Source of the DNA: Linyphia triangularis
Taxonomy: Eukaryota > Arthropoda > Arachnida > Araneae > Linyphiidae
NCBI GenBank assembly: GCA_963978545.1
Contig: OZ021722.1
Span: forward strand, 10,755,401-10,819,400
Direction: 5' to 3'
DNA: 64,000 nucleotides
Numbering within the stretch: the first letter of the stretch is position 1; every line of letters begins with the position of its first letter. The notes beneath the pieces were generated by a model. The model had not been told where the DNA came from. It worked only from the letters and a program-made list of their open reading frames with translations, and ran no database searches. The translations under genes and the position numbers were made by a program. Shown here piece by piece: positions 4,098 to 58,440 of the stretch.

Positions 4098-7000
4098 AAT
4101 TGAAACGTCACCAAAACCTGTCCACATAAGGCTAAAAGCAAGTTGTGCTTGTAGCATTTTGATATTAGTGCTGTGATCGAATCAATTGTAAAGCCACATA
4201 TTAAAGACATTATGTGAGATATCAAAATTTTCAAAGATCCCTAAAAAACATTATTTAGGTCTTGGAAAAGTCATTGATTTACATTCAGCTGTTTCATTAC
4301 AAATACTCTGTATATTATCTAGTCAAACTATTACTTGTACAGAAATGTGAATAACTTATTCAAATTATATGTGTGTATATTTATGTATATATTTATAAAT
4401 TGTATTATGTATACTTTAATTGTATTACTATGTATATATATAATTACTATGTATATTTACTATGTGTATTTACTATGAATAATTATCTATACTTGCTGCA
4501 CTGGAATAATACTTGTATGGCCAAAAGAGTTTGCGACCAGAACACTGTGACGAATACAAATACTCTACCTGGGGAAGTGCACATTTAATGTGCTGTGTCT
4601 ATAGCGCAGTGCATATAAAAACATTGGATTGAAACATTAAAATCTGTTCATAAGGCAAAAAACAAATTGTACATGTAATATTTTGATACAAGTGCTATCG
4701 AATCAGCTGTAAAATCATAACATTAAAGACATGATGTCTTTAAAAAAAATTTCAAAGATCCTTAAAAAACATTATTTAGGTCTTGAAAAGTCACTGATTT
4801 TCAGTCAGCGGTTTCATTACAAATACTGTGTATGTTATCTAGTCAAGCTATTAATTGTACCAACTTACTCAAATGATATGTGTGTATATTTATGCATTTA
4901 TCTATAAATTGTATTCTGTATACTTTAATTGTATTTACTATGTATATGTATAATTATTTACTATGTGTATTTATATAATTATATATACTTGCTGAACATG
5001 AATAATACTTGTACGGCCAAAAGAGTTTGCAACCAGAATACTGTGACAAATACAAATACTCTGCCTGGGAAGTGCACATTTAATGTGCTGTGTCTATAGC
5101 GCAGTGCATATAAAAAAATGGATTGAAACATCATTAAAATCTGTTCATAAGGCAAAAAACAAATTGTACATATAATATTTTGATACTAGTGCTACCGAAA
5201 CAGCTGTTAAGTCATAACATTAAAGACATGATGTCTTTAAACAAATTTTCAAAGATCCTTAAAAAACATTATTTAGGTCTTGAAAAGTCATTGATTTTCA
5301 TTCAGTGGTTTCATTAGAAATGCTGTGTATGTTATATAGTCAAACTATTAATTGTACCAACTTACTCAAATGATATGTGTGCATTTATCTATAAATTGTA
5401 TCAACTTACTCAAATAATATGTGTGTATATTTATGCATTTATCTATATTGTATTCTGTATACTTTAATTGTATTTACTATGTATATGTATAATTATTTAC
5501 TATGTATATTTACTGTGTATAATTATGTATACTTGCTGCACTGGAATAATACTTGTATGGCCAAAAAAGTTTACAACCAGAATACTGTGACGAACACGAT
5601 TACTCTGCCTGGGAAGTGCACATTTAATGTGCTGTGTCTATAGCGCAGTGCATATAAAAAAATGGATTGAAACATCATTAAAATCTGTTCATAAGGCAAA
5701 AAACAAATTGTACATATAATATTTTAATACTAGTGCTACCGAAACAGCTGTTAAGTCGTAACATTAAAGACATGATGTCTTTCAACAAATTTTCAAAGAT
5801 CCTTAAAAAACATTATTTAGGTCTTGAAAAGTCATTGATTTTCATTCAGCGGTTTCATTAGAAATACTGTGAATGTTATCTAGTCAAACTATTAATTGTA
5901 CCAACTTATTCAAAATGATATGCGTGTATATTTTTGCATTCATCTATAAATTGTATTATGTATATTTTTATTGTATTTTTTCTGTATTATTTACTATGTA
6001 TATTTACTATGTGTATTTACATAATTATATATACTTGCTGCACTGGAATAATACTTGTATGGCCAAAAGAGTTTACAACCAGAATACTGTGACGAACACG
6101 ATTACTCTGCCTGGGAAGTGCACATTTAATATGCTGTGTCTATAGCGCAGTGCATATAAAAAAAAATGGATTGAAACATCATTAAAATCTGTTCATAAGG
6201 CAAAAAACAAATTGTACATATAATATTTTGATACTAGTGCTACCGAAACAGCTGTTAAGTCGTAACATTAAAGACATGATGTCTTTCAACAAATTTTCAA
6301 AGATCCTTAAAAAACATTATTTAGGTCTTGAAAAGTCATTGATTTTCATTCAGCGGTTTCATTAGAAATACTGTGAATGTTATCTAGTCAAACTATTAAT
6401 TGTACCAACTTATTCAAAATGATATGCGTGTATATTTTTGCATTCATCTATAAATTGTATTATGTATATTTTTATTGTATTTTTTCTGTATTATTTACTA
6501 TGTATATTTACTATGTGTATTTACATAATTATATATACTTGCTGCACTGGAATAATACTTGTATGGCCAAAAGAGTTTACAACCAGAATACTGTGACGAA
6601 CACGATTACTCTGCCTGGGAAGTGCACATTTAATGTGCTGTGTCTATAGCGCAGTGCATATAAAAAAAAATGGATTGAAACATCATTAAAATCTGTTCAT
6701 AAGGCAAAAAACAAATTGTACATATAATATTTTGATACTAGTGCTACCGAAACAGCTGTTAAGTCGTAACATTAAAGACATGATGTCTTTCAAAAAATTT
6801 TCCAAGATCCTTAAAAAACATTATTTAGGTTTTGAAAAGTCATTGATTTTCATTCAGCGGTTTCATTAGAAATACTGTGAATGTTATCTAGTCAAACTAT
6901 TAATTGTACCAACTTATTCAAAATGATATGCATGTATATTTTTGCATTCATCTATAAATTGTATTATGTATATTTTTATTGTATTTTTTCTGTATTATTT

Positions 7001-10000
7001 ACTATGTATATTTACTATGTGTATTTATATAATTATATATACTTGCTGCACTGGAATAATACTTGTATGGCCAAAAGAGTTTACAACCAGAATACTGTGA
7101 CGAACACGATTACTCTGCCTGGGAAGTGCACATTTAATGTGCTGTGTCTATAGCGCAGTGCATATAAAAAAATGGATTGAAACATTATTAAAATCTGTTC
7201 ATAAGGCAAAAAACAAATTGTACATATAATATTTTGATACTAGTGCTACCAAAACAGCTGTTAAGTCATAACATTAAAGACATGATGTCTTTAAACAAAT
7301 TTTCAAAGATCCTTAAAAAACATTTTTTAGGTCTTGAAAGGTCATTGATTTTCATTCAGTGGTTTCATTAGAAATACTGTGTATGTTATATAGTCAAACA
7401 ATTAATTGTACCAACTTACTCAAATGATATGTGTGCATTTATCTATAAATTGTATCAACTTACTCAAATGCTATGTGTGTATATTTATGCATTTATCTAT
7501 ATTGTATTCTGTATACTTTAATTGTATTTACTATGTATATGTATAATTATTTACTATGTGTATTTATATAATTATATATACTTGCTGAACATGAATAATA
7601 CTTGTACGGCCAAAAGAGTTTGCAACCAGAATACTGTGACAAATACAAATACTCTGCCTGGGAAGTGCACATTTAATGTGCTGTGTCTATAGCGCAATGC
7701 ATATAATAAAATGGATTGAAACATCATTAAAATCTGTTCATAAGGCAAAAAGCAAATTGTACATGTAATATTTTGATACTAGTGCTACCGTAACAGCTGT
7801 TAAGTCGTAACATTAAAGACATGATGTCTTAAAACAAATTTTCAAAGATCCTTAAAAAACATTATTTAGGTCTTGAAAAGTCATTGATTTTCATTCAGCG
7901 GTTTCATTAGAAATACTGTGAATGTTATCTAGTCAAACTATTAATTGTACCAACTTATTCAAAATGATATGCGTGTATATTTATGCATTCATCTATAAAT
8001 TGTATTATGTATATTTTTATTGTATTTTTTCTCTATTATTTACTATGTATATTTACTATGTGTATTTATATAATTATATATACTTGCTGCACTGGAATAA
8101 TACTTGTATGGCCAAAAGAGTTTACAACCAGAATACTGTGACGAACACGATTACTCTGCCTGGGAAGTGCACATTTAATGTGCTGTGTCTATAGCGCAGT
8201 GCATATAAAAAAATGGATTGAAACATTATTAAAATCTGTTCATAAGGCAAAAAACAAATTGTACATATAATATTTTGATACTAGTGCTACCAAAACAGCT
8301 GTTAAGTCGTAACATTAAAGACATGATGTCTTTAAACAAATTTTCAAAGATCCTTAAAAAACATTATTTAGGTCTTGAATCATTGATTTTCATTCAGCGG
8401 TTTCATTAGAAATACTGTGAATGTTATCTAGTCAAACTATTAATTGTACCAACTTATTCAAAATGATATGCGTGTATATTTATGCATTCATCTATAAATT
8501 CTATTATGTATATTTTTATTGTATTTTTTATGTATAATTATTTACTATGTATATTTACTATGTGCATTTACTGTGTATAATTATGCATACTTGCTGCACT
8601 GTAATAATACTTGTATGGCCAAAAGAGTTTGCGACCAGTTTACTGTGATGAATACTATGCGTGGGAAGTTCACATATGTGTTATGGCTGAAGCACACTGC
8701 ATACAAAACAATAGATTGAAACGTCATCAAAATATGTCCACTTAAGCCAGAATGCAAGTTGTGCTTGTAGAATTTTGATATTAGTGCTGTAGTCGAATCA
8801 ATTGTAAAGCCACATATTAAAGACATGATGTGAGAATACAAATTTTCAAAGAACCTGAAAAAACATTATTTAGGTCTTGAAAGGTCATTGATTTACCTTC
8901 AGCGGTTTCACTAGAAATAGTGTGTATATTACCTAGTCAAACTGTTAATTCTACCAAAATGTTACCAATTTACTGAAATATGCGTGTATATATATGTATA
9001 TATTTATAAATTGTATTATGTATATTTTCACTTTAAGAAACCTTTAAACCTCTCACCATAAACACATTGAAAAAAGAGTTTGCGACCAGTTTAACAGAAG
9101 TTATTTACAAATACTATGCCCGGGAAGTGTACATTCAATGTGCTATTGATAAACACAGTGGATATCAAACGTTGGATTGAAACATCATCAAAATCTGTCC
9201 ATAAGGCAAAAACAAATTGTGCTTGTAAGATTTTGATACTTTTCCGAATGTGGCTGAATTAAAGACATGATGTGTCAAGACATGCAAAGCCACACGTTAA
9301 AGACACGGTGTCTTTAAATAAATTTTCAAAGATCCTTAAAAAATGTTATTTCTGTCTTGAAAAGTCATTGATTTGCATTCCACGATTTCAGTAGGAATAC
9401 TGTGTATATTATCTAGAAAACTATTAATTGTACAGAAATATAACCAACTTACTTAAGTGTTATGTGTGTGCATAATTTATACTTTCATTTTCATGAACCT
9501 TTAAACCCCTCACCATGAACAAATTGTAAACTATTGTTTGCATATCTTAAAATGCTTGTTGGTATGCTGCCTGCCAACATTCCCGCATTATTGTTTGAAT
9601 GTATGTTTTCGAGCAATTGAAAGTACTTGAAAAGGCTTAGAGGTATAAGTCTTTAATATTTGTTGATGTTATGTTCCTAACTGTAATTATTATAAAAATT
9701 CAAGTATGTTTTGTTTAACTCCACTTATCTGTGCCTCACTGGAATTATCTGGTATTTGTTAGGCCAAAAGAGTTGTCGACGAGTTTAGTATAAGCTATTT
9801 ACAAATACTATGCCCGGAAAGTGTACATTCAATGTGCTACAGATAAACACAGTGGATATAAAACATTAGATTGAAACATCATCAAAATCTGTCCATAAGG
9901 CAAAAAGCAAATTGTGCTTGTAAGATTTTAATACTTGTCCAAATGTGGCGTGGCTGAATTAAAGACATGATGTGTAAAGGCATGTAAAGTCACACATTAA

Positions 10001-10749: not shown

Positions 10750-11405
10750 AAATTTATGGTGTTTTCTCATTTAATTAAAAATGGCCAATTTGGAGATATT
10801 TTTGGCAAAAATGTTTACATGTGCAAAAAACCCCCGCCAAGATGGCAAAATTGTCGATGTTATTCGATCGACATTGCATTGTCCTTTCTTGTGCGGAAAA
10901 CAGAAAAAAAATCAATCGTTGATGAGCGATGTTCAAGGGCAGAGAGCTCTGCGTTAACGACACTCGTTTCTCATCTAACGGTATAGTGGTTAGCGTGCTA
11001 GCTTCTAGATCGCGAGGTTGCGGGTTCCGAGTCCCATGTTAGGCATGGGTGTTTGTAAATGTATGTTGGCTTGTCTAATGACGAATGTTTCGGCGCATTA
11101 TAGCCCTCGTGTTGCTGATGGCGCTAGATAATCTGAAAAACAACCAATCAACAACGTTTCTCATCTTTTTACCCTTTTATCACATTTCTAGGGAAATTTT
11201 GAAGGTGGGGACGATTAGATTTTACACAGAGATTTTAATCAAAATTTTTAGAGTCGTCTTTTAGTAATTGATGGAAAACAGGTTCTTTTCGTGATTTTTC
11301 ATAATTTCAACAGCATGCTCAAACGTGATTTTGACTGAAACCTAAATGGTTGGTCCCATGGCCACCACTAACCCGCACACAAAATTTCAACATCATAGGT
11401 CAATT
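10750..11405 (+). repeat. Dispersed repeat family A, copy 1 (split by SINE)
   Basis: This segment aligns by eye with 27585-28075. Both carry a block near GGCCAATTTGGAGATATTTT, then GGGCAGAGAGCTCTGCGTTA (with AAGAGAGCTCTGTGTTAAAG in the other copy). Both then have a block with ATTTTGATCAAAAT, and CCATGGCCACCAC (CCATGGCGACCAC). A SINE at 10976-11154 interrupts this copy but not the other. The element class is unknown. Confidence 0.6.
10976..11154 (+). mobile_element. tRNA-derived SINE, copy 1
   Basis: The head is tRNA-like. It begins ACGGTATAGTGGTTAGCGTG (A-box region) and continues to a B-box-like GGGTTCCGAGTCCC. The unrelated body ends in a GGCGC hairpin and a tail of CAACCAATCAAC. A perfect 11-bp target-site duplication, CGTTTCTCATC, lies at 10965-10975 and 11155-11165. 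The host repeat copy at 27.7 kb lacks the insertion. The B box has one extra base compared with the consensus, so this copy is probably inactive. Confidence 0.9.
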
Positions 11406-17767: not shown

Positions 17768-18552
17768 TCAAGCATGATATTTTGAACTGCAATTAATACA
17801 TAATTTTCGGGTACATTGAAGACAAACTGGCTGAACGCATCCCAAACATTTGTATGCAGTTTTCCTCTTTTTGCTGGGAGGACATAAATTGCAAGTTTTG
17901 CGTTTTTCTAGTTTATCATCATGGGTGAGATTTCTTAAATCTTGACAATCACTTTGTCCTAGAATTTGTTCAGTTGTCAGTTTCATTTCACTAGGTAATT
18001 GCGTTGAGGATATTCTCCGTTTCAAATGAGGCACTACCAGTTCTTTTGCTAAGGAAAGCATGAATTTTGTTCGCTTTATCTTCGTAGCTTCGGGAAATGA
18101 TTGAAACAACACAAAGGTATTTACTGCACATATATCTTTCCTTCTACGTGAACTAATTTTCACGTTAGTCCATTTCACTATAACTTCTACGATACTTGCA
18201 TCGAAAAGTAAATTCCAGATCTCCTCGGGCTCTGCTTTGGGTCCAATTCTTGCTGGGCGTTTCAATCCTGGCAATTGTACAATTATGTTATGTTTTGCAA
18301 TTCGAACGGCTCGATTAGGTTCTTGAACACACCATTTGAAATAGTTTTTTTGATAAAAATTGTCTTGAGTAGAAGTGTTTGAAGAGACTTCAATCTCATC
18401 CGCAGACATTTCGGAATGAGTGATATGGTCCCTTTAAAAAAATCCGAATTTTCAGTATCTGAACACTCTACATCAGACCAATTATTAATGATATCTTCAA
18501 TTTCTTCTTTCGTGAGAAAAACGGGGTGTTTTTTAAGAACATTTATAGCCAT
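17768..18552 (-). pseudogene. piggyBac transposase remnant (N and C ends only)
   Basis: Translation begins at 18552 with a lysine/acidic N-terminus containing EEIEDIINNWSDVECSDTEN, the acidic leader typical of piggyBac transposases. It then shifts frame near 18410 to a 213-residue frame. That frame has FKWCVQEPNRAVRIAKHNII and EEIWNLLFDASIVEVIVKWT, the start of the DDE_Tnp_1_7 domain. It then jumps directly to a C-terminal part with LAKELVVPHLKRR and a cysteine-rich tail (CNLC, YKCLGCVQPVCLQC, CINC), which in the family binds DNA or chromatin. The catalytic aspartate segment is missing, so the protein is about a third of normal length. A frameshift plus a central deletion make it a dead copy. 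Similarity to the family is from pattern recognition, not a search. Confidence 0.9.
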
Positions 18553-25029: not shown

Positions 25030-27100
25030 TGTTTCTACCCAGTTTTTCAAAACCATTCATGCCAGAATGGACCAAATACAGTTTATCCAAAGACCAACTT
25101 TTCAGAGCCTCATATAATAGTGTGGTGCACAGTGCTTATTCCATCAGACGCACTAATTTTTTTAATCAGCACGTATGAAAAATAACTTTAGATACACATT
25201 CAAAGTCATTTTATTTGTTCAAACAGTTAAATAATAATGGAACCAGAATATATATAAAAATATGACTAGATTAAAAAATATAACTAGATTAAACTGCGAA
25301 ATTTTATTAAAAAATTTATTGTTTATTAACGTCTAATATTCAAAGTGAGCAGTATGTTTCTGAAATTTTTTAATTATACTGTATTTGTGCATTTTTAGTG
25401 GCAACAAAAAAACTATTATTTTGAATTATATATTTTCTTTTATTAGTTTCATAAAATCATATTTCTAGAATTTTAAGAAACGAGATGATTTGAAAAGAAA
25501 AGCAGATTTGAACAAATTGAGGTAATATCACCAATTATTAGGTACAGCAAGGTTGTTCAGTAAATAATGTTTAATATTCTTTAAAGTTAACCATATTTTG
25601 ATCAATATGTTACAACTGGAGCTCTCAGTGTACCCACTTTGTAAATTGGTCAATGCAATTTTTTAAACATTTAATTGAAATGCATATCTACTTCTTAAGT
25701 ATGCATTGGTTGTGTTTATTACTATTTAAAATAAGTATTTTGATAGAACTTGGTTGTGATTTCGATTGTGGTACAGAAGTGTCTTGGGAACACCTTAGTC
25801 CGTGACAATTTCGAGAAAAATACAAATGAACATTTTTAATCTTGCAGAGGGCACATTAACGCATTCGTGTGGCTTATTTTAGTTGAAATTTCATTGCTTG
25901 GCGACACAATAAAAACAATTTCATTTCAGAAAAAAGTCCCTTGAACCTAAACGATTTATGTTGCGAGAATGAGGTTGAACCTTTCAAGATTTAATTTAAG
26001 AACAACAATTGATTGTGCTAAAAATAATTTCCAGTTTAAATTGTGGATTAAAATATTGTGATGCCAATTAACATAAAAACACAAGAGACATTTAATATTA
26101 CCATTACATTCAGATTCATTAATAATAGATTTTACAAAAATATCATTGATTAAATATACCTGTGTTATTCAGTCAGTACAGCGAAGATTATTTCCAATAC
26201 AGATCCCAACACATAAACAATCACGAGGACTTCACAAGGGCAAACTTTACATGGAACTCTACTTTCTAAAGTTTAGGTATATTGTTTAGTTTAAAATATA
26301 TATACCATTTGCATAGTAAAAACCATTGCTTTATGTATTTTATGATTACCTTGAATAAGATACAAGTCTCTACAAGTTTTCAAAAAAATTAAATTTTACC
26401 CAAGTACATGATTAAAAAGATATCTATTGTCTACCCAGGGGTCAGAAATGATAATAGTTTGTTCACCACTGCTTTAGAAAAACCACCAATTCCTATGCAT
26501 AAAGTTTTAGAATTAAAAAGTTTTTTCTATGATCATAATTAAAATGAGTCATCTAACTTTCATTATATTTGTGTTTCGTTAGCCATGTCTCAGCATTGGT
26601 TGGTTGCGTGGATTTTAATGGCACAAGCCAATATTGGCCAAGCTGCACCAAACATATTTTGTTTTACGAAACTATATAATTTTTAGCAGGACTTATTCAA
26701 AAAGAAATAAGTCAAATTAAGTATGTAAAACCAATGTCTTTCAAAAATGAAAACAAATTTGGATGTGGTTCGTCTGGCAGTAAATCCTTTAATGCTAAAT
26801 TAGTAGTACCGTCTAGGCATTGATTGGAGAAGATATATTCTATTTAACTTACTTGCTAAAGAATCTCTTTCCAATTTTCTTTTCAGAAAATAACATATAA
26901 TAGCATGTTGATGGTAAAAATGAAATCATCATGATCACGTGTACAGAAGTATGGTATATCGCAGTTACGGTTAAATAAATTCGTATTCTAGGCGATTTAA
27001 GAAAGTAAATACTACCACATTTGGCGTTTTATGTCAACTCCAACTAAACTGTGTTGCCAAGTAAGAAAATGGTGATGTTGTGCCAAATCTGGTACTTTCT
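25030..27100. other. AT-rich sequence without recognisable genes
   Basis: No frame of 60 codons or more and no repeat structure were evident over two kilobases. This is the longest featureless block in the window. Confidence 0.55.
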
Positions 27101-39200: not shown

Positions 39201-39628
39201 AAAAAGAAAATTCACTGACATTAATGTGAAAGAACCACGTCCATCCTTTGCTTTTGTGCGATATCACAGTGAAAAGGTATGCCAATTATTTTACATGGTA
39301 TAAACTTAAACACCCTAGAAATAATATTAACTATGTAGAGGTCTTGCATAATTGAATAACAAAACTCGTTATAAAAAAAACCCAGTTTTTTTAAATACTC
39401 TTCTTCAATAGTCGAATGAATTGACAAACTAATTTTTTTTTTACGGTAATTTGAAATTTTGGTACAAATGTTGCAATATCATGACACATTTTTACCTCGA
39501 CATGCTTTTAAATTCCATTTCTTTTTGTAGTGCAGTGTGTTAAAATATAAACTGCTTATAATTTTTTTTTTAATTAAACTTATCGAATTTTGTATTTAGT
39601 GAAACTATTTTTTCACGTCGAATTGAGT

Positions 39629-39811
39629 CGATCAAACGGTATAGTGGTTAGCGTGCTAGATTCTAGACCGCGAGGTTGCGGGTTCGGGTCCCGTGTAAGG
39701 CATGGGTGTTTGTAAATGTATGTTGGCTTGTCAAATGACGAATGTTTCGGCGCATTATAGCCCTCGTGTTGCTGACGGCGCCAGATAATCTGAAAACAAC
39801 CAACCAAGATG
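39629..39811 (+). mobile_element. tRNA-derived SINE, copy 2
   Basis: It begins CGATCAAACGGTATAGTGGT. A-box region TAGTGGTTAGCGTG and B box GGGTTCGGGTCCC are nearly intact. The body has ATGTATGTTGGCTTGT and the terminal hairpin GGCGCATTATAGCCC ... GGCGCCAG, then AAAACAACCAACCAA. I found no clear target-site duplication. Confidence 0.9.
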
Positions 39812-42150: not shown

Positions 42151-42169
42151 CTGATGTGATAGCTGGACC
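42151..42169 (+). repeat. Target-site duplication, left copy
   Basis: CTGATGTGATAGCTGGACC, 19 bp, repeated without a mismatch at 47971-47989. It defines the insertion of the retrotransposon. Confidence 0.97.
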
Positions 42170-42572
42170 CCTCAGGGGGTTTACTTTCTTTAAGTAAACA
42201 CGGGCTTCACAACCCCGAGGTGCCCCAGTGATCTAACCCTTCGTCTGTTGTACCTTCCTTTTTAGGTTTTTGTATTTATTGTTTGGCTTCTCTTCCATCC
42301 CTCGTTGTGGTTACCTCTTCAGAGGTGAGGGCTCCCCTTGAGAAGCTTTGTGCCGCTCTGTTGCTATCAGCTTCTCTCGGGGATTATATCACCCACGTGT
42401 TTGCCGTGCGTGGAGACCCGTGTCCCTGGAAAGGGGGATCCTGGTAGTTGAGGGACGACATACTGTCCCAATACACTACTTTGGCCCTTGCTTCAGATAA
42501 ACGGGAGGTGTACATTGGTCCCATGTGCATCAATCGGCTGGTCGTCCGACTTCGTCGGCGGCTTGGGATCAA

Positions 42573-42637
42573 GCGACCGGCTCGTCTACTGGGAATCTCG
42601 TTAAGGGTTGAGACATCTACAGGGACGAGCCGGTCGC
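42573..42637 (+). promoter_or_regulatory. 14-bp perfect stem-loop in LINE 5' UTR
   Basis: GCGACCGGCTCGTC at 42573-42586 is the exact inverse of GACGAGCCGGTCGC at 42624-42637, with a 37-base loop. It is GC-rich in a GC-richer 5' UTR. It could act on RNA packaging, translation or promoter function; the role is inferred only. Confidence 0.75.
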
Positions 42638-42800
42638 GTATAGACACTAGATAACCTGATAGTGTTATGCCGTGCGTAACAGTTCAGTTACTATTTTTTT
42701 TTCTTGCTTTTTGTTGCTTGCCGGTGTGCACTATCCCTGATATCGAGGACTCCATGGTGGGTGGGATTCTAGTGTCCGAAATTTTAGTTCTTTATTTTAA

Positions 42801-44138
42801 ATGGCATCTATTCTTCCTTTGTGCCCCACGGGAGGCCTTAATCCCCAAAATGTATCTACAAAACGACAAATAGACATTGACGAAAACACATCACTTAAAA
42901 AGCAAGCTCAATCACCTAATGTACCCACCTTTATAATAGTTCAATCTGAATCCGGAGAATTGGGAAAAATGTCCCCTTTCTTTATACAAAAGGGCATAAA
43001 AGGTATCTGCGGGAATGAACCAAAGGCAATTAAGAAGCTAAGATCGGGTGACTTCCTAATCGAAACCAAAGACTCTAGACAATCACAGTACTTACTATCT
43101 GCAACAACAATAGGCAATATCAAAATAACAGTAACCCCACACAAAGCTTTAAACTCATGTCAAGGCGTCATTTCGGAATCAGATCTACAACATGTAGATG
43201 ATTCCGAAATCCTGAAGGAACTATCTGCACAAGATGTTACTAATGTTCGCCGAATAACCATCAAACGAGACAACAATATAATAAAGACTAAGCATATTAT
43301 CCTAACCTTCAACACACCTAAACTTCCCAATAGAATCACTGCTGGTTATCTAAGTTGTCCCGTACGCCCTTACATCCCAAATCCATTACGATGCTTTAAA
43401 TGCCAAAAGTTCGGGCATTCTAGAAATACATGTAGAAGTGATCACGAAGTTTGCGCAGTGTGTGGCAGCATTGAACATCCAAGCGAAGGCTGCAAAGCTG
43501 AGCCCACCTGCGTAAACTGCTCTGGAAATCATCCATCTTTTTCCAGAACGTGCAAACAATACATTAAAGAAAAGGATATTCAAGAAATAAAAGCCAACAA
43601 TAACATCTCATATCCGGAAGCCCGAACTATATACCAAACTACAATAGAAAATTCCATGGCCAAAACAATAGCAAAATCCCTTATTCCCGCACCAATTCAA
43701 GTGAAATGCATAGCTACTCAAACTGATATCCAAATCCCTCATACTCAAATGTCACCCGAACAGCTTCTTAAGTGTTTTTCCCCACTTGCAAAACACACTG
43801 CATCTTCATCTCAAACAATCCCAATTCCCGGTAAATCAAATTTAACTGCAAAAACTACAGGAAAATCTAACAAAAACAAAAAACAGTCTGAATCAAAACA
43901 TTCAAATAAACCTGGAGAAGTTCTAAAAAGTAAAATACAGTCAAAACTACAAACAAATACACAAAAGAAAATCAAAACAAAGGAAGAGAAATCTGAAACT
44001 TCATCTGAAGAAGATACAGATGTCATCTCGGGTCTTGATCCAGGTGACATGGAGGTCGACCCAGGCCTCGAGACCCCTGCTCTTCTTCATCCGAGGAGCA
44101 GGTCATTAGACCGGCGGATCGGTAAACCTTCCAAGTAA
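42801..44138 (+). CDS. LINE ORF1, zinc-knuckle nucleic-acid-binding protein
   Basis: 445 residues. ORF1 proteins of this retrotransposon group bind the element RNA and act as chaperones in the ribonucleoprotein. Three consecutive CCHC-type zinc knuckles are visible: CFKCQKFGHSRNTC at residue ~198, CAVCGSIEHPSEGC at ~218 and CVNCSGNHPSFSRTC at ~237. Before them, residues ~50-190 resemble the PRE_C2HC-type region of arthropod X-element/Jockey Gag-like proteins. The C-terminal third is lysine/serine-rich and low in complexity (KKNKKQSESK-style) and ends with an acidic patch and an arginine-rich tail. The start ATG has a favourable purine context (AAATGG). The stop is 8 bases before the ATG of ORF2, which lies in another frame. 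This suggests coupled termination-reinitiation. No disabling mutation was seen. Confidence 0.93.
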   Translation: MASILPLCPTGGLNPQNVSTKRQIDIDENTSLKKQAQSPNVPTFIIVQSESGELGKMSPFFIQKGIKGICGNEPKAIKKLRSGDFLIETKDSRQSQYLLSATTIGNIKITVTPHKALNSCQGVISESDLQHVDDSEILKELSAQDVTNVRRITIKRDNNIIKTKHIILTFNTPKLPNRITAGYLSCPVRPYIPNPLRCFKCQKFGHSRNTCRSDHEVCAVCGSIEHPSEGCKAEPTCVNCSGNHPSFSRTCKQYIKEKDIQEIKANNNISYPEARTIYQTTIENSMAKTIAKSLIPAPIQVKCIATQTDIQIPHTQMSPEQLLKCFSPLAKHTASSSQTIPIPGKSNLTAKTTGKSNKNKKQSESKHSNKPGEVLKSKIQSKLQTNTQKKIKTKEEKSETSSEEDTDVISGLDPGDMEVDPGLETPALLHPRSRSLDRRIGKPSK

Positions 44139-44146
44139 CATTCAAT

Positions 44147-47100
44147 ATGTTATCTTGGAATTGTCGCGGTTTCCACCACAACTCGGTAGATATAAAACAT
44201 CTTGTAGATTTATACAAACCTGTCTGCTTCTGTTTGCAAGAGACGCTCTTAAGGCCTTTTCAGAGCTCTCTTGTTAGGGGGTACAGTCCCCTACGTAAGG
44301 ACTTTGTCAGCGGCGACAGAGCTAGCGGCGGTGTTGCTATATTTACATCGAATAGTAGTCCATCCACCCCGCTATCGCTCATAACCACCTTACAAGCTGT
44401 TGCTGCTAGAGTAACTGTAAAAAATCAACTAGTCACAGTTTGTTCCATTTATCTCCCCCCTAATCGTAACATCCGACAATCAGAACTAGACAGGCTTTGT
44501 GACCAGCTTCCTCCCCCTTTTATTTTAATGGGGGATTTCAACGGCCACAATCCTCTTTGGGGTAGCCCAGATATAAATCAACGTGGAAGGCAAGTCGAAA
44601 AAGTTATGAATGACCAAAGTCTATGTCTTCTAAATAATGGGCAACAAACATACTTCCACGCCCCATCGAGGACGTTTCACGCCATCGATCTCGTCTTGTG
44701 TTCGCCATCTCTCCTACATCTATGGTCGTTTCATGTCGGACGGGATCCTTACCATAGTGATCATTTCCCCATCCGTCTGGAGATGTTAGGAGATGGTACT
44801 GTTCCCTCTGTTCGTGTTCCTCGGTTCAAAATCGAATCTGCCGATTGGGAACAGTTTTCTTCCGTCGTCGATTTCTCTGACGAGATGGTAAACCAAGACA
44901 ACATCGATGACGCTGTAAATTCTATTACACAGGCCATTTTGGAAGCTGCACGCATTTCCATATCTATGACATCTACTAAGCTACCGAAAATTCCTAAACC
45001 GTGGTGGAACCATGACTGTAAAATTGCACATAAAGAGCGGAGGAAGGCTTGGGGTATTTTTCGCCGATACCCCACAGAAAACAACCTCATTGCTTTTAAA
45101 CGTGCCCGAGCTCAAGCTCGTAAGATCCGCCGGCGTAGCCAGAAGGACTCTTGGACGGTTTATGTCAGCACTATAACATCGAATACCTCTGCTAAAAGTG
45201 TCTGGAATAAAGTCAACAAAATTAAGGGCCAATATCCCAGAAACTCCTTCTCTATCCTGGAGACAGATCTGGGTATTGTTTCAGACCCTAAAGGTATTGC
45301 TGACACCCTGGCTGACTCTTTTGCTAACATATCTAGCAATTCGAATTACAAAGAGCCGTTCGCCTCTATAAAAAGTAATGCTGAGAAAACAAAATTAAAC
45401 TTTACATCCAACGAGTTAGAAGACTATAATGCTGATTTCACCATGGCCGAGTTAATGCGAGCTCTTTCGAACACTCGCGGCTCGGCCGTTGGTTATGATG
45501 AAATCCATTATAGTATGCTGAAACATCTCCAGCCTCTCCAACTCAAGTACATTCTCAAGCTATATAATAGGATCTGGCGGGAAAACAAATTCCCGTCAGC
45601 ATGGCAACGTGCTCTTGTAATTCCAATAGTCAAGCCAGGTAAAGACGCTAAGAGTCCTTCCAGCTACAGACCAATAGCATTAACTAGTTGCTTATGCAAA
45701 CTATTAGAAAAATTAGTCAATGCTCGTCTGCTTTTTTATTTGGAACACAACAATTGTCTCTCTCGGTTTCAAAGTGGTTTCCGTCGTGGGCGAAGTACAC
45801 TTGACAACCTGCTTTTCCTAGAAACATCTATTCGGGAGGCATTTGTCAAGCGGAACCATTTGGTATCTGTTTTTTTCGACATGGAGAAAGCCTATGACCG
45901 TACTTGGAGATATGGTATCCTCAGAGACCTACATAATTTAGGTCTCAGAGGAAATTTACCACTCTTTATTGAGAATTTCCTTTCTCGGAGAGTCTTCCAA
46001 GTACGAGTCAACTCTGTCTTATCCGATGAGTTTATTCAGGAGCAAGGCGTTCCCCAAGGAAGTGTATTGAGTTGCGCACTGTTTATCATCAAAGTCAACG
46101 ACATTATGACCTGCCTACCACCTGCAGTGTCTGGATCGTTATTTGTCGATGACTTTCAAATATCGTGCGCCTCAATAAACATGTCTCTTATTGAAAGACA
46201 AATCCAACTCGCCATCAGGAGAATTTCAGACTGGGCCAACCATAATGGATTTACATTTAATGCCCAAAAGACCGTGGCCGTGCACTTTTGCAGGAAACGA
46301 GGGCTTCATAACGACCCCGAGCTTTACTTAAATAGGGACCAGATACCTATTGTATCTCAAACAAAATTCCTTGGAGTCATTTTCGATTCGAAGCTTACTT
46401 TCCTGCCTCATATAAAACATCTGAGACTAAAGTGCACTAAAGCTCTGAATCTCCTGAAAGTGCTTTCTAACACTTCCTGGGGTGCTGATACCACCTCCAT
46501 GTTGAAAATATACAGATGCCTTATTCGTTCCAAACTTGATTATGGTTCTGTGGTGTACGGATCCGCCAGAAAATCGGTGTTGATGCTCCTTGACCCTGTC
46601 CACCACCAAGGTGTCAGAATCGCGTCAGGGGCCTTCCGTACATCACCAATCCCAAGTGTACTCAATATATGTTTGGAACAACCTTTGAAACTGAGACGAG
46701 ACAAGCTGTCTTTAAAATTTTATTTTAAAATTAAAAGTCATCCATCTCACCTTGTCGCTCAAAATATTTATGATCCATTACATATCAGACTTTTTAACGC
46801 GCGACCATCTTGCATCCCATCATTTTCATTACGTATACATAAAGTTCTTTTATTTTATGGTTTGGACAACTTCAGAGTTCGTCCTGTTATTTTTAATGTA
46901 CCTCCCTGGCATGATCATAAAATCATAATTTTAAATATTTTTAGTCATTTTAAAAAAAGTGACACTCCTGACATTGTTTTTACTACTCATTTTCATTTCC
47001 ATAGAACTAACTTTTCTCATTTTAAATCGATATATACCGATGGGTCGAAAAGCCAGGGGCATGTCGGAGCTGCTGCAGTTCATGACAATAACATCATGTC

Positions 47101-47824
47101 CCGCGAACTGCACAGTAGCAGCTCCGTTTTTTCTGCTGAGTCCCTGGCGATTCTTATGGCCTTGCAATACATCCTACAGCAAGAGCACGACCAGTGGATT
47201 ATTTACACAGACTCGAAGAGCTGTTTGGATGCTCTGAATAATCCACTGAGCCAGACCCATCCCTTCATACTAGACATTTTAAATACTCAGATTTTACTTT
47301 TAGAGAGAAATATCCAAGTTCTTTTTTGTTGGATCCCAGGTCATGTGGGGATCATGGGTAATGAACGCGCAGACTCCATCGCACGATCAACAAGTGGACC
47401 TAGGAGCACTTGGCTTTGCCCTGACGACGCATATAAAGCTTGTGACACTGCTCTGTCTCTCACTTGGCAGGCCATGTGGGATGCACAGACGGCTAACAAG
47501 CTGCGTTCGTTTCAGCCCTCAATTTCCGGATTCGCCCCCATACAGCAATCCAGGAAAAGGGAAGTGCTCTTGACACGACTAAGAATAGGTCACACACGTT
47601 TTACCCATGTGCATCTTCTGCTGGCAGAAGATGCCCCCACATGCAATGCCTGTGGAGTTGTTTTTACAGTTTTTCATATTTTAAATGAGTGTCCATCTTT
47701 TAACCCAGTCAGATACAGATATTTTAATATGAATAATCCCCCATTGTCGTCTCTCCTGAATTCACCCCCTCATAAAAATCTTTTTCGTTTTTTACTTGAA
47801 ATTGGCTTTTATCACTTGATTTGA
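44147..47824 (+). CDS. LINE ORF2: endonuclease, reverse transcriptase, RNase H
   Basis: 1225 residues, intact. Residues 1-210 form an APE-type endonuclease: LSWNCRG, LQET, GDFNGHNPLWG, IDLVLC and SDHFPI at ~204. This part would nick target DNA. Residues ~470-760 are the reverse transcriptase: PGKDAKSPSSYRPIAL, FFDMEKAYDRTW, QGVPQGSVLS and the catalytic box FVDD at 666-669 (the commonest family form is YADD or FADD; both Asp are present). Residues ~960-1090 are RNase H: IYTDGS with Asp 965, AESLAILMAL, YTDSKSCLDAL and WIPGHVGIMGNERAD. A C-terminal knuckle CNACGVVFTVFHILNEC starts at 1166. All expected catalytic residues can be seen. It presumably acts in cis on the element RNA, and probably in trans on the SINEs that share its 3' end. 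Confidence 0.95.
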   Translation: MLSWNCRGFHHNSVDIKHLVDLYKPVCFCLQETLLRPFQSSLVRGYSPLRKDFVSGDRASGGVAIFTSNSSPSTPLSLITTLQAVAARVTVKNQLVTVCSIYLPPNRNIRQSELDRLCDQLPPPFILMGDFNGHNPLWGSPDINQRGRQVEKVMNDQSLCLLNNGQQTYFHAPSRTFHAIDLVLCSPSLLHLWSFHVGRDPYHSDHFPIRLEMLGDGTVPSVRVPRFKIESADWEQFSSVVDFSDEMVNQDNIDDAVNSITQAILEAARISISMTSTKLPKIPKPWWNHDCKIAHKERRKAWGIFRRYPTENNLIAFKRARAQARKIRRRSQKDSWTVYVSTITSNTSAKSVWNKVNKIKGQYPRNSFSILETDLGIVSDPKGIADTLADSFANISSNSNYKEPFASIKSNAEKTKLNFTSNELEDYNADFTMAELMRALSNTRGSAVGYDEIHYSMLKHLQPLQLKYILKLYNRIWRENKFPSAWQRALVIPIVKPGKDAKSPSSYRPIALTSCLCKLLEKLVNARLLFYLEHNNCLSRFQSGFRRGRSTLDNLLFLETSIREAFVKRNHLVSVFFDMEKAYDRTWRYGILRDLHNLGLRGNLPLFIENFLSRRVFQVRVNSVLSDEFIQEQGVPQGSVLSCALFIIKVNDIMTCLPPAVSGSLFVDDFQISCASINMSLIERQIQLAIRRISDWANHNGFTFNAQKTVAVHFCRKRGLHNDPELYLNRDQIPIVSQTKFLGVIFDSKLTFLPHIKHLRLKCTKALNLLKVLSNTSWGADTTSMLKIYRCLIRSKLDYGSVVYGSARKSVLMLLDPVHHQGVRIASGAFRTSPIPSVLNICLEQPLKLRRDKLSLKFYFKIKSHPSHLVAQNIYDPLHIRLFNARPSCIPSFSLRIHKVLLFYGLDNFRVRPVIFNVPPWHDHKIIILNIFSHFKKSDTPDIVFTTHFHFHRTNFSHFKSIYTDGSKSQGHVGAAAVHDNNIMSRELHSSSSVFSAESLAILMALQYILQQEHDQWIIYTDSKSCLDALNNPLSQTHPFILDILNTQILLLERNIQVLFCWIPGHVGIMGNERADSIARSTSGPRSTWLCPDDAYKACDTALSLTWQAMWDAQTANKLRSFQPSISGFAPIQQSRKREVLLTRLRIGHTRFTHVHLLLAEDAPTCNACGVVFTVFHILNECPSFNPVRYRYFNMNNPPLSSLLNSPPHKNLFRFLLEIGFYHLI

Positions 47825-47910
47825 TTATTTCGTTTTTAATCTTTTAACTATTACAGATCAATTTATATTTCTTAAATTTTTTTAACTTGGTTGATATAGT
47901 TTAATTTGTA

Positions 47911-47970
47911 CGGCGCAGTATGGCCCATGAGTTGCCCTTGCGCCAGTAAAGCAACCAACCAACCAACCAA
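47911..47970 (+). promoter_or_regulatory. LINE 3'-end hairpin and CAAC tail
   Basis: GGCGCA (47912-47917) pairs with TGCGCC (47939-47944) around a loop with GTATGGCCCATGAGTTGC, followed by AGTAAAG and five CAAC-type repeats. The SINE tails have the same layout: GGCGCA-TATAGCCC-GTTGC-GGCGCCAG, then CAACCAACC. In stringent LINE/SINE pairs such a 3' element is the signal recognised by the reverse transcriptase. Confidence 0.8.
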
Positions 47971-47989
47971 CTGATGTGATAGCTGGACC
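47971..47989 (+). repeat. Target-site duplication, right copy
   Basis: Identical to 42151-42169 over 19 bp. Confidence 0.97.
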
Positions 47990-48346: not shown

Positions 48347-49442
48347 CTGTAATGGGTTTGTCATTCAAGGAGGTCGGGCTACTACTTCCTCTCTCAGGAC
48401 ATCGGGTGTTTATTTAGAAAATTTAAACCGAATAGGTCTGCAGAATCAGGTCGATGGCGTCTGAGATTTAAAAAAAATCAAAATCGAACCAGTAACAACC
48501 ATACACAAAGGTATGAGAGAAGTAAGGAACATAATTGTATCAGTCTCGCTCTCATATTCAGAAGTCTGTTTATACTATGTCCCGTGGAACCATCACACCA
48601 CCTTCTCTGGATGAATGCAGAAATATCAATTTCAGTTGGATAACAACATTTCTTCTGATTCAAAACTTGGTCGTAAGGATGGGAAAACATCGTTTCCAAA
48701 TTATTTTGCAGATTGCCTTAAAACAGTAAACAATAGTCATGTTTGGATAACGGGGCTATTAATCTATAATTCCTTACAAGAGCTCTATTATTTGTAAAAT
48801 ATTTTAGCAAACGATAATTTTTATACGTCACTACAAGTGCGGCATAACCTTGTGTATGTGTTTTCTATGGTGCTTGGACAGCTTGCTTCACAGATTTATG
48901 CAGATAATTACCAAAGTAGCAGATTGTAGCAGCTGATTCTTGGTTTATTGGTTAAAATATTGTTTAAGGAACAGTTTGATACCAATAAGGCCTTGGCGCA
49001 CGTTGGCGCACATTAGTTATAGCCTTTTATTCATACGAAAATATGATATTATAGGAATCATCATGAAAAACGTATTTTAACACATATTAAAAAAAGATTT
49101 CAACAAAAATCACAGAAAACAGTCCTAAGAATTCATTAGAGTGCGAATATATATTTTTAATAGTTTATATCATTAATGGCAAATCAATAAATATTGACGT
49201 CAAAACGAGCTACTTTTTGTGTGATGACTTTCGGTGAGTGTAAATAAATAAAAAAAATGTCTATTTAATGTCTAAATTCTGAAATCTTAGTACTCAACTA
49301 TCCTTAAAATAAAAAATAATGTCAATTTTCATTTTTCCCAAAACTTAAAAACCGGGGTTTTTGCCGCTCCCAGACCACTGTGCGCCATTTTAAGAAAAAA
49401 CTGACCACACAGTTTATTCAAGACTTTTCCTATTTCTAAAAG

Positions 49443-49572
49443 CGTGCTAGCTTCTAAACCGCGAGGTTGCATGGATGTTTGTAAATGTATGTTGGCTTGT
49501 CTAATGACGAATGTTTCGGCGCATTATAGCCCTCGTGTTGCTGACGGCGCCAGATAATCTGAGTACAACCAA
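49443..49572 (+). mobile_element. Truncated SINE, copy 3 (no B box)
   Basis: A perfect 15-bp duplication, TCCTATTTCTAAAAG (49428-49442 and 49573-49587), surrounds a copy that begins at CGTGCTAGCTTCTAAACCGC. It lacks the SINE start and the A-box core, and also the B-box segment: GCGAGGTTGC joins directly to ATGGATGTTT. The terminal hairpin GGCGCATTATAGCCC ... GGCGCCAG is intact. This looks like 5' truncation plus internal loss before or during insertion. Confidence 0.9.
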
Positions 49573-49874
49573 TCCTATTTCTAAAAGTGATTTAAGGGAA
49601 AGGAGAGGAGTGCACTTTTGCTTTGGTATATAATATTTACTTTCATATAGAACATGCTGTTAGTGTATTTTAATAATATTCAGCCTCACTTGAAAACTAA
49701 AATATTATTATAAATTCTTGATTATAATTCCTTGAGAACTGCAGTATTCAAGTTTTTTAAATTATTGTATTGTATTATCATACATTTTAACTCATTTTTG
49801 CAAACCATATATAACATTACAACTTCTTTGCATTTTGTTTTTATTTCAACCTATTGATTCCCATCCATTCCCAG

Positions 49875-50050
49875 CCGACCAAACGGTATAGTGGTTAGCG
49901 TGCTGGCTTCTAGACCGCGAGTTTGCTGGTGCGAGTCCAGTGTTAGGCATGGGTGTTTGTAAATGTATGTTAGCTTGTTTAATGACGAATGTTTCGGCGC
50001 ATTATAGCCCTAGTGTTGCTGATGGTGCCAGATAATCTGAATACAACCAA
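49875..50050 (+). mobile_element. tRNA-derived SINE, copy 4
   Basis: It starts CCGACCAAACGGTATAGTGG. The A-box region is intact; the B-box region is altered (GCTGGTGCGAGTCC). The duplication CCCATCCATTCCCAG (49860-49874) reappears as CCCATCCACTCCCAG (50051-50065), one mismatch in 15. Confidence 0.92.
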
Positions 50051-50778
50051 CCCATCCACTCCCAGAACATTTTGTTTAGTTTTAATATAGTTTCTATTAA
50101 TTATATTACTTTTATAGCATTTAATTACAGTTGAAATTTTAATAAAAATTATTATCCATACGATTAATTTTGAGTTGCTTTTCTCAAATTCAAACATTAT
50201 TTTTTCTCCACAGTGTCCTTATGGAAAATTATGCAGTATCGAGATTAATGTGCATCGTTTCGATCTTTTAGAAACCTATTTCTACTTAATTATTCAAGTT
50301 GACTTAAATGTTCAGTGATAAGGGTATGAATATTTTATTACTTTTTATGAGTTTTCAGAATCATCAAACCAAATGGGGATTCCCAATAATATTTAAGTTT
50401 TAAGTCTCAACCTTTGATGTCGAACATGCACTTAATGTAGTTTTCCCTGTTTTATTATGAATTTTATCCCTCCATTTATACAAGGTCATTCTGAAAATAA
50501 TCCCTAACTTTGAATGACATAAGAGCTAAACAGTAAAAAGAGGCATGTTATAAGGAATGTATAAAAGGTATGGAATTATAAATATACGGGCAATTCTACC
50601 ATAATTTTAACTTTTAGGTAAGGGAAATTTTGGAAAACAAAACGTAACAAATTAACATAAAATGTATATGAAAATGCTTATTAATGTTTCAAGATTACTA
50701 AACAATAGTCAGCAGTGATCGTTTTTAAAGAAATTTTGTTATAATGACTAAATATATTGAGTTTTTGTACCTAATTTT

Positions 50779-51199: not shown

Positions 51200-52385
51200 A
51201 GTATTCGGATCTAAATGTATTGTAAAAACAAAGTTTTCTTCTTAAAATACCTGTTGAAATAGTTTATCATAGTCCTTGACATTGTTTATGCACAAAAATT
51301 GGTTTGATATTGAATGCGGTGGATCCTCAATTCTAGACATTATTTCTGTCACTGGTAGGCTGTTGTGACCTTCTGTTAATGTCTAAAAGAATTTGTCGTC
51401 AGAGCGATGCATTTACATAAGTTATTGCATCAGTTTCCAATTTTTCTACAATTCCGAGATAGAATGAGTTGTCGTAACATGCAGCAATCCAGTCTCCTTT
51501 TAAAACTTTATCAAGTTTTCCCGTCTCTTGATTAATTGAAGTGTTGGGACCACCATTTTGTGGTCCATCATCTTTGTGAGAAGAGGCTGTTTTCTTATGA
51601 CAAGTTGGGATACTGGTAAAGTCCCATATGCTGGGGCCGACCAAACGGTATAGTGGTTAGCGTGCTAGCTTCTAGACCGCGAGGTTGCGGATTCGAGTCC
51701 CGTGTTAGGCATGGGTATTTGTAAATGTATGTTGGCTTGTCTAATGACGAATGTTTTAGTGCATTATAGCCCTCGTGTTGCTGACGGCGGAAGATAATCT
51801 GAAAAACAACCAACCAACTCTCTTGACCACCCCCAATCACCCATATGCTGGAATTTGATAAAAAATGTTTACATTTTACTCCTTCTCAAGCAAAACATGA
51901 AACAGTGCGGAGACCAAGATGATTTGGAGATGTGGAACTCCATACGATGTGCCTTAACTTCATTGTATTTGGTACTGGTTTCAAATTTTGTGTTAACAAC
52001 TTCAATGTCTATAATGAATATTTTGAAACAATTTAACTTTAAGCTTCGAATTTTTCAAAGCTATGTATAAAGTCTAAGCATCCGTAATCTATGTGAAATG
52101 TGCTATAAACTGGTCTGTCTTCTTTCAGCTACCCTCCAAAACCATCAGCAGAACTTTAGAACTCAGTGAAGTTCAATGTGGTTTCTTTAAAACCCAGTTC
52201 TTGAACAAATTGTGTAAGCAAGTACAAGTTCGTTTTATTTTTGTACTATGTTATTGGGTCATCGCTTTGGAAATGAAAGTTATTAATACGTGGCCATGTC
52301 TTTTGTATCATATCTAAAACTGACATAAAATGTTCCCAAACGTCATTCGAGTCATGACGCACATTTTCTTAGTTGAGAATTGAAT
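51200..52385 (-). pseudogene. Decayed copy of uncharacterised multicopy protein
   Basis: Read on the minus strand, blocks appear in order: VRHDSNDVWEHFMSVLDMIQ, NNFHFQSDDPIT then a stop, YKNKTNLYLLTQFVQELGF, NFTEF then a stop, SSADGFGG (52370-52120). Next come VPNTMKLRHIVW, LGLRTVSCF (to ~51880) and the SINE insertion. Last are DKVLKGDWIAACYDNSFYLG, VEKLETDAITYV, then in another frame MHRSDDKFF and EIMSRIEDPP (to ~51220). This order (SDGP-TQY, WNF-E-HGK-ADG-GG, GDWV-YD, MHR) matches a large arthropod and cnidarian family of uncharacterised proteins that I recall but cannot name. Its abundance suggests it is spread by, or is, mobile DNA. Stops, frameshifts and the SINE make this copy dead. Confidence 0.65.
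51635..51839 (+). mobile_element. tRNA-derived SINE, copy 5, with 3' extension
   Basis: It starts GGCCGACCAAACGGTATAGT. Both promoter boxes are near consensus (GCGGATTCGAGTCCCG). The end hairpin is mutated (AGTGCATTATAGCCC ... GGCGGAAG). The duplication CCCATATGCTGG lies at 51623-51634 and 51840-51851. After the CAACCAACCAAC tail there are 21 extra bases, TCTCTTGACC followed by ACCCCCAATCA, before the second duplication copy. They look like a 3' transduced flank. The insertion splits the pseudogene on the other strand. Confidence 0.9.
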
Positions 52386-57507: not shown

Positions 57508-57753
57508 CAGGCGTATAGGCAGGGGGTGGGATATGGGGATATCACCTCCCAAAAGCTTACAGTTTACCATAACTCAAAAATCATAGGACTCATCATGTTT
57601 AAGGTGGTAAATTTATTAAAAACGATTTTAAATGTCTAAAACCCTATTATCTTGATTATCAGGTACAGGCCGCACTTATAATAAATAAAAATTATGATTT
57701 GTCAACTTAAAATTTCATATCCCATCCAGAAAAAATCTCTGCCTACGCCCCTG
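57508..57753. mobile_element. hAT MITE, 246 bp
   Basis: The left end CAGGCGTATAGGCAGG and the right end read inward CAGGGGCGTAGGCAGAG are flanked by a perfect 8-bp duplication, ACAATAGT (57500-57507 and 57754-57761). TGGGATATGG and its inverse ATATCCCATCC extend the arms. It was inserted into the piggyBac-related fragment. Confidence 0.9.
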
Positions 57754-57777
57754 ACAATAGTTAGAGATAGTTACGAG

Positions 57778-58440
57778 AGACAGTTAGATATCAATATATT
57801 CACTGATAGCAGATCCTCAATCGAGTCGCTTACTAGCACCGACAATAAGTCTGAAATCCTCTTCAATTTCAAATCTACCCTAAATAAATACAAAGACCAT
57901 TTTAATCTTTATTGGATCAAAGCCCATGCCGGAGATCCAGGCAATGAAACAGCGGACCTCCATGCTAAAATGGGGGCCGCTTCCGGTAACAATTACAATC
58001 TCCCAATCCCTTACTCATACCTTAAATACAGCTGCAAATCAATTATTAATAAATGGTGGCTTGGTTCCTGGAGATCCTCAACAGGAACCGGCAATTGCAG
58101 AGTTAAAACATTCATACCTAAACCCTCAAATATTACGCAGATTACTAATAGAAACCTCATTTTTTTCCTGACTAATCACGGACCCTTTCTTCAATATTTA
58201 CATCGTTTTAAATTAAAAAATACAAATTTCTGTCCATGCGGCTCGATTGGGGACGCTGACCACTATTTATTTGACTGCCCCCTCACCGTGGGCCACTACT
58301 TGACCAGACCATCGGACCAAAATAAACCCAAATGGTTGGAGCTAGTACAAATCAATAAAACCTCACTTAATAAAATCGAAAAATCAATCAGGTTCTCAAA
58401 GGAAATTTGTAACATCCAACAGAATGACAGCAATCACTGA
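57778..58440 (+). pseudogene. 5'-truncated LINE ORF2 end (RNase H, zinc knuckle)
   Basis: A 220-residue open tail of a second non-LTR retrotransposon. It enters the RNase H domain at NIFTDSRSSIESL, continues to LYWIKAHAGDPGNETADLHA (family HxGxxGNxxAD), then IIFFLTNHGP-type residues, YLHRFKL, and a zinc motif FCPCGSIGDADHYLFDCP. It stops at 58438-58440. Endonuclease, reverse transcriptase and the first half of RNase H are missing, as is usual for 5'-truncated LINE insertions. The frame is uninterrupted, so the copy is fairly young. The apparent ATG at 57694 lies in the upstream MITE and is not the real start. The sequence is unlike the 42-48 kb element and looks closer to R1-type arthropod elements; clade uncertain. 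Confidence 0.85.

Follow-up and report, generated by a model that had tools for sequence, protein, structure and literature searches.

A hairpin followed by a CAAC-type tail closes both a full-length LINE and a short SINE of the spider Linyphia triangularis, and, judged from the sequences, this module is very probably the stringent-type 3′ recognition element of a LINE clade encoding an APE endonuclease, a reverse transcriptase (RT) and an RNase H, the SINE's version of it enabling the SINE to be copied. The hairpin alone was pasted many times, which suggests that it is the part recognised by the copying machinery. This reading draws on (i) a LINE–SINE similarity that starts at the hairpin, (ii) retention of the hairpin down to about 45% ORF2 identity and (iii) target-site duplications (TSDs) at LINE, SINE and hairpin-only copies. 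By analogy with known elements, the ORF2 protein would bind the hairpin and target-primed reverse transcription would start at the CAAC tail; a SINE carrying its own version of the LINE 3′ element would be copied by the LINE machinery, and LINE-derived hairpin-only insertions would derive from RNA stubs, or from aborted cDNA, that end at the 5′ base of the hairpin.

The window, i.e. the whole 64,000-nt stretch of DNA analysed, contains a complete LINE, hereafter family A, with the following features.

42151..42169: 5′ TSD of the LINE, CTGATGTGATAGCTGGACC
42170..47970, + strand: full-length LINE of family A, bounded by the 19-nt TSD and matching a second genomic copy at 99.8% identity over 5811 bp
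42801..44138, + strand: ORF1, 445 aa, with CCHC zinc-knuckle motifs identified by eye and without Pfam match
44126..47824, + strand: ORF2, 1232 aa, with APE endonuclease, RT and RNase H
47911..47944, + strand: 3′ hairpin, with outer stem GGCGCAG/UUGCGCC, inner stem GGC/GCC and 9-nt loop CCAUGAGUU
47952..47970, + strand: (CAAC)n tail
47971..47989: 3′ TSD of the LINE, CTGATGTGATAGCTGGACC

From 47911 onwards the element reads CGGCGCAGTATGGCCCATGAGTTGCCCTTGCGCCAGTAAAG(CAAC)n. The sequence-only reading of this DNA had described a CGGCGCA...GTTGC hairpin and a tail at the LINE end, and this description was correct, the strings that it quoted being the real sequence minus the letters at the hyphens. 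Many genomic copies of family A have identical 3′ ends; it is a young LINE family. The domain layout (APE, RT and RNase H, with the zinc knuckles of ORF1 seen by eye) matches that of an I-group LINE. Among the best 120 matches listed, the closest named relatives of ORF2 are spider proteins with 44–53% identity and the same APE-RT-RNase H arrangement, annotated as 'X-element' or 'mobile element jockey' in Stegodyphus, Araneus, Trichonephila and Argiope; these were compared as proteins alone, the names look like automatic annotation, and the Argiope entry is an uncharacterized protein.

Five copies of a SINE of ~180 nt lie in the same window.

10969..11149, + strand: SINE copy 1, hairpin match at 11091–11131 with arm substitutions, ends approximate
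39626..39806, + strand: SINE copy 2, hairpin match at 39748–39788 exact, ends approximate
49441..49574, + strand: SINE copy 3, 5′-truncated and with an internal deletion, hairpin match at 49517–49557 exact, ends approximate
49873..50053, + strand: SINE copy 4, hairpin match at 49995–50035 with arm substitutions, ends approximate
51635..51817, + strand: SINE copy 5, hairpin match at 51760–51797 badly damaged, ends approximate

The co-occurrence of a full-length LINE with SINEs in one window, as the sequence-only reading had it, thus holds, the LINE being bounded by its 19-nt TSDs, and so does the claim that the SINEs keep a LINE-like stem and tail: a related hairpin and a CAAC tail are present in all five copies, with an exact hairpin in two (those starting at 39626 and 49441) and arm substitutions in the other three. 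Copy 3 is flanked by CCTATTTCTAAAAG, by eye. A search of the 1.35-Gb genome with the SINE gave 3758 first-look candidates, 40 of which were scored. TSDs surround 29 of the 34 SINE copies examined, a set without swapped-flank control in which two of the TSD-bearing copies (L009 and L012) share the same amplified host repeat. SINE copy 5 sits within an amplified host repeat, and L009–L017 have nearly identical flanks. The SINE head has a candidate Pol III B box, GGTTCGAGTCC, in agreement with the consensus, and TAGTGGTTAGC is A-box-like, both by eye. ARAGORN found no tRNA gene in the window and ten SINE loci, and an Rfam search for a tRNA in the SINE gave no match.

We compared the 3′ ends of the two elements letter by letter. 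The 41-nt end of family A scores 15.5 against the SINE end, to be compared with a mean of 3.9 (sd 1.7, maximum 10.5) for 500 single-letter shuffles. The tails of other LINE families of the genome score 21.5 (B), 15.5 (C), 19.5 (D) and 24.5 (E); for A, B, D and E the shuffled means are 3.7–3.9 with an sd of about 1.7, and none of 500 shuffles exceeds 12. Over the 49 nt that precede the hairpin, families A–E show no similarity to the SINE (92 to 491 of 500 shuffles reach the real score), which places the start of the shared module at the hairpin. LINE and SINE ends also fold alike, into an outer stem, an inner stem and a 9-nt loop, with CC-NNNN-GUU in most, the SINE being without two outer-stem pairs that are present in the LINEs. 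SINE and LINE share 3′-end sequence adjoining the same terminal repeat, as members of a stringent-type pair do. The elements have no match in Rfam, and a search for relatives in viral contigs found none.

Could such a likeness reflect convergence or chance between unrelated structured ends that have a common simple-repeat tail? CAAC-type tails alone are of low complexity, the 3′ arm of the SINE is unlike that of the LINEs, and the hairpin letters of one further family, F, score 5.0 against the SINE, which is shuffle level. However, the hairpin letters of families A–E, taken without the repeat, outscore all 500 shuffles each, and the LINE-type pattern CGGCGCAGTATRGCCCNNNNGTTGC has 143 matches in the genome against 0 for the reversed control. 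We therefore hold convergence or chance to be extremely improbable.

Eight LINE families of the genome have this hairpin, most of them with CAAC-type tails. The families were found through nested copies and pattern matches: A in the window, B at L051:7991, C at L051:1638, D at L005, E at L069–L072 and L075, F at L044 and L024, G at L172, L159, L140 and L065, and H in the window, where its end is preserved as follows.

26614..26650, − strand: 3′ hairpin of LINE family H, with palindromic inner stem GCCAAU/AUUGGC, followed by CAACCAACC; covariance-model match with E 6e-4

A remnant of the ORF2 C-terminus is recognisable by eye upstream of the family H hairpin. In families C and F the hairpin is followed by AAAC repeats and by ACTAACATCAAACTC, respectively, rather than by (CAAC)n, and family F also differs from the other families in loop and inner stem. 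Compared with family A, the ORF2 proteins of B, E and C are 76%, 71% and 45% identical, respectively. In a midpoint-rooted tree of 37 sequences, built from relatives found by similarity and interpreted without branch support, A, B and E cluster and C falls among Araneus elements. Alignment of 11 hand-picked hairpins pairs 92.6% of the cells, compared with 33–66% in slid versions, the outermost pair being unformed in six of the 11. The covariation that had been proposed as a check of the stem was found in the form of three double-sided pair changes, each carried by one sequence of this hand-picked set; shuffles give 0.8 on average and reach three in 2 of 500 cases. Among these changes, the inner stem has A-U in the SINE for G-C in most LINEs, and U-A for G-C in family F. 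By covariation score one slid version (0.107) exceeds the true alignment (0.096). The loop varies across families (ATGA, TAGC, TTGT, TCGT, ATGT/ACGT), and from such variants partner specificity may be predicted.

The sequence-only reading had proposed a LINE/SINE partnership in which the SINE acquired the recognition end of the window's own LINE family. The partnership itself is supported by the hairpin and tail shared across genomic copies, by folding, by a few compensatory changes and by TSDs; the proposed donor is not. The tail of the window LINE is not the best match in the genome: the loop of family E is identical to the SINE loop CCTCGTGTT (9/9, against 6/9 for the window LINE, by eye) and its tail scores 24.5 against 15.5, so that family E is the different LINE family with a better tail match that the reading had itself named as counting against it. 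Family A was accordingly rejected as best partner. An origin of the SINE from the family A LINE of the window, with mobilisation by that LINE, agrees with their similar hairpin plan and tail and with the youth of family A and its many copies with identical 3′ ends; however, this is improbable given the loop and tail differences just described, and in the L2 LINEs of zebrafish it is the loop that sets specificity (PMC4176376). The 3′ arm of the SINE, TGACGGCGCC, has no match in any LINE family seen. A LINE bearing the SINE-type hairpin was looked for and none appeared: all 23 fetched copies of CGGCGCAGTATAGCCCTCG[TC]GTTGC have the SINE body upstream, and among the first 100 of 206 SINE-hairpin matches the 12 fetched are five SINEs and seven hairpin-only copies, the other 88 having been judged from 27 letters each. 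Since family E has the SINE loop and the best score, and no LINE has the SINE 3′ arm, we infer from these comparisons that the main partner of the SINE is likelier to be family E or an unseen relative than family A.

Matches to the LINE-type pattern revealed insertions consisting of the hairpin and its tail only. The locus classes given here are for the first 100 of the 143 pattern matches listed, 52 in contigs C1–C9 and 48 in contig C10. In C1–C9, 22 of the 52 are SINEs and 30 are of LINE type, all fetched. Half of the latter (15/30) are hairpin-only: they have no LINE body, and their TSD ends at most 3 nt from the hairpin start. LINE sequence lies upstream in 9/30 (L050, L061, L065, L066, L075, L082, L084, L091 and L092, with L065 scored as LINE-bearing because it carries LINE 3′ UTR), and 6/30 are ambiguous (L076, L085, L089, L090, L093 and L094). 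As L059 and L077 stem from a single event, the hairpin-only class comprises 14 of 29 distinct events. When flanks were swapped, a duplication of at least 8 nt near the hairpin start was found in 8/462 cases, and two of these eight, with a score of 14, are most likely the L059/L077 pair. The insertions measure about 45 nt plus the tail and start a few bases from the 5′ base of the hairpin. Among the LINE-type copies of C1–C9, one has a body of 27 nt and one of the six ambiguous copies has perhaps about 20 nt, by eye. In C10, 46 of the 48 matches listed are of LINE type, and each of these is preceded by LINE sequence (established by similarity for 24 and from fetched loci for 22); of the remainder, L198 is a SINE and one further match was unfetched.

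Young nested LINE copies are concentrated in the first 26 Mb of C10, which holds 46 of the 76 LINE-type hairpins among the first 100 matches listed and is possibly a sex-linked or heterochromatic region. The 3′ flanks common to L126/L127 and to L095/L124 point to segmental duplication there as well.

Family G provided a sample in which the 5′ side is unselected, since its search pattern consisted of the 3′ arm and tail, without the 5′ arm. Its 3′-arm pattern has 412 exact matches (control, 0), and 40 loci were sampled from C1 to C4. Eleven of the 40 are one composite repeat and 26 are neither composite nor provided with LINE body. Among the 29 non-composite loci, 19 start at the hairpin base, seven start inside the hairpin and three have LINE body (base or inside assigned by eye). 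Of the 26 letters preceding the hairpin, 20–25 are LINE-like in the three body copies and 3–11 in the 26 others, a comparison that could miss bodies under about 10 nt. A TSD score of at least 9 was obtained for 16 of 30 loci classed as non-composite by script (L160 was manually reassigned to the composites, leaving 29) but for only 33 of 870 swapped pairs. In 14 of these 16 loci the TSD end lies in the interval from 2 nt within to 4 nt beyond the hairpin start; in L144 it lies inside the hairpin, and L178 is ambiguous. The 200 nt upstream of the non-composite loci have no mutual similarity at E 0.001 except for L159/L172, and a further comparison links L140 to L172. The idea that family G is without a parent LINE was rejected, as L172, L159, L140 and L065 carry LINE 3′ UTR and L172 also the end of ORF2. 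L041, L144 and L168 start inside the hairpin; an intact 5′ arm is thus not needed in the final copy.

The composite repeat joins a piece of the family G 3′ arm and a CAACC tail to an adjoining GGTTCGATTCC-like motif in reverse orientation, and occurs at the following loci.

L139, L147, L149, L151, L153, L154, L157, L160, L162, L166 and L170: composite repeat

The SINE likewise gave TSD-flanked hairpin-only copies, seven among the first 100 of 206 matches (L096, L098–L101, L105 and L107). However, a control breakpoint 24 nt upstream yielded five truncated insertions that are clear by eye (L109, L112, L114, L116 and L119) in 44 matches, 14 of them fetched. A SINE truncation peak at the hairpin, not clearly above this control site, is thus unsupported, and as the control site also yields truncated SINEs we claim a start-point peak for the LINE-type copies only. 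SINE and hairpin-only copies alike prefer targets that are T-rich before C; we set this preference aside because it is partly forced by extending the duplications into the tail.

How did the LINE-type peak arise? We propose that what was copied is a 3′ stub, either protected or aborted. If LINE RNA decays to a protein-protected stub, the long RNA of the LINE would be expected to give a peak but the short RNA of the SINE would not, whereas a polymerase stop at the hairpin would give a peak for LINE and SINE alike. Several LINE families have starts clustered at the base of the hairpin, which would suit a reverse transcriptase that tends to stop past the hairpin, where its own protein is bound, and aborts; but the SINE has a similar hairpin and no clear peak, which RNA decay to a protected stub fits better, and we regard such an enzyme stop as somewhat doubtful. 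The data thus lean, weakly, to an RNA stub. We tentatively propose, as one possibility, that LINE RNA decayed or was cut to a stub of ~45–65 nt (hairpin plus tail) held by LINE protein, and that such stubs were pasted as a distinct target-primed class of probably hundreds of insertions, a number suggested by the 412 exact matches of the family G pattern and by the 26 of 40 sampled loci that are neither composite nor carry LINE body.

It is unlikely that the hairpin-only insertions are simply ordinary random 5′ truncations of which short copies survive selection better. Among the LINE-type matches listed, LINE sequence lies upstream in 46/46 in C10 but in only 9/30 in C1–C9; as C10 has long copies and C1–C9 mostly short ones, long copies may be removed elsewhere, and the SINE truncations look roughly even. 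However, truncation followed by purging should leave copies with some tens of nucleotides of body. Outside the three long-body copies, none of 26 family G loci is LINE-like over 26 nt upstream, and 14 of 16 family G TSDs end at the hairpin base; the C1–C9 set offers the one copy with 27 nt of body and the one with perhaps about 20 nt, with 6/30 ambiguous. Better survival of short copies may add to the C10 contrast, but it poorly explains the scarcity of bodies of some tens of nucleotides. Should the protected-stub reading be true, these insertions would count among the smallest retroposons and would amount to a deletion experiment of nature, marking the minimal mobile RNA.

SINE/LINE pairs of this kind are already known, and the hairpin-only insertions perhaps represent a new variant. 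A 2013 survey counts 58 SINEs in such pairs (PMC3747384), and ORF2 protein of L2 LINEs binds the stem-loop, the loop setting specificity (PMC4176376). Eel UnaL2/UnaSINE and zebrafish ZfL2-1 and ZfL2-2 resemble the present elements in having a 3′ stem-loop and a short terminal repeat, shared with the SINE in eel, and their loop is recognised specifically in this L2-clade, stringent-type system (PMC4176376 and PMC3747384). They differ in belonging to the L2 clade, in the TGTAA repeats of the UnaL2 tail and in that recognition was cell-tested there, whereas here it is read from sequence. The one protostome pair in the 2013 table is the Gecko SINE with I-74_AAe / MosquI of Aedes aegypti, LINEs of the I clade (PMC3747384, Table 1); this is a mosquito pair and is likened to the present one by description only. 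In the open-access literature that was searched we found no arachnid SINE/LINE pair and no description of hairpin-only insertions. Our data add to that table an arachnid pair with an RNase H-bearing LINE. The hairpin-only insertions point, without a bench assay, to the RNA needed by the LINE machinery, and pose the question of RNA decay to a protected stub versus a polymerase stop.

Three further features were noted in the window: about eleven tandem copies of a ~500-nt unit at 4200–9440; an element remnant at 17768–18433 (− strand), with a 221-aa frame that has a cysteine-rich end and is without Pfam match; and, at 57685–58440 (+ strand), an RNase H fragment, perhaps part of another LINE.
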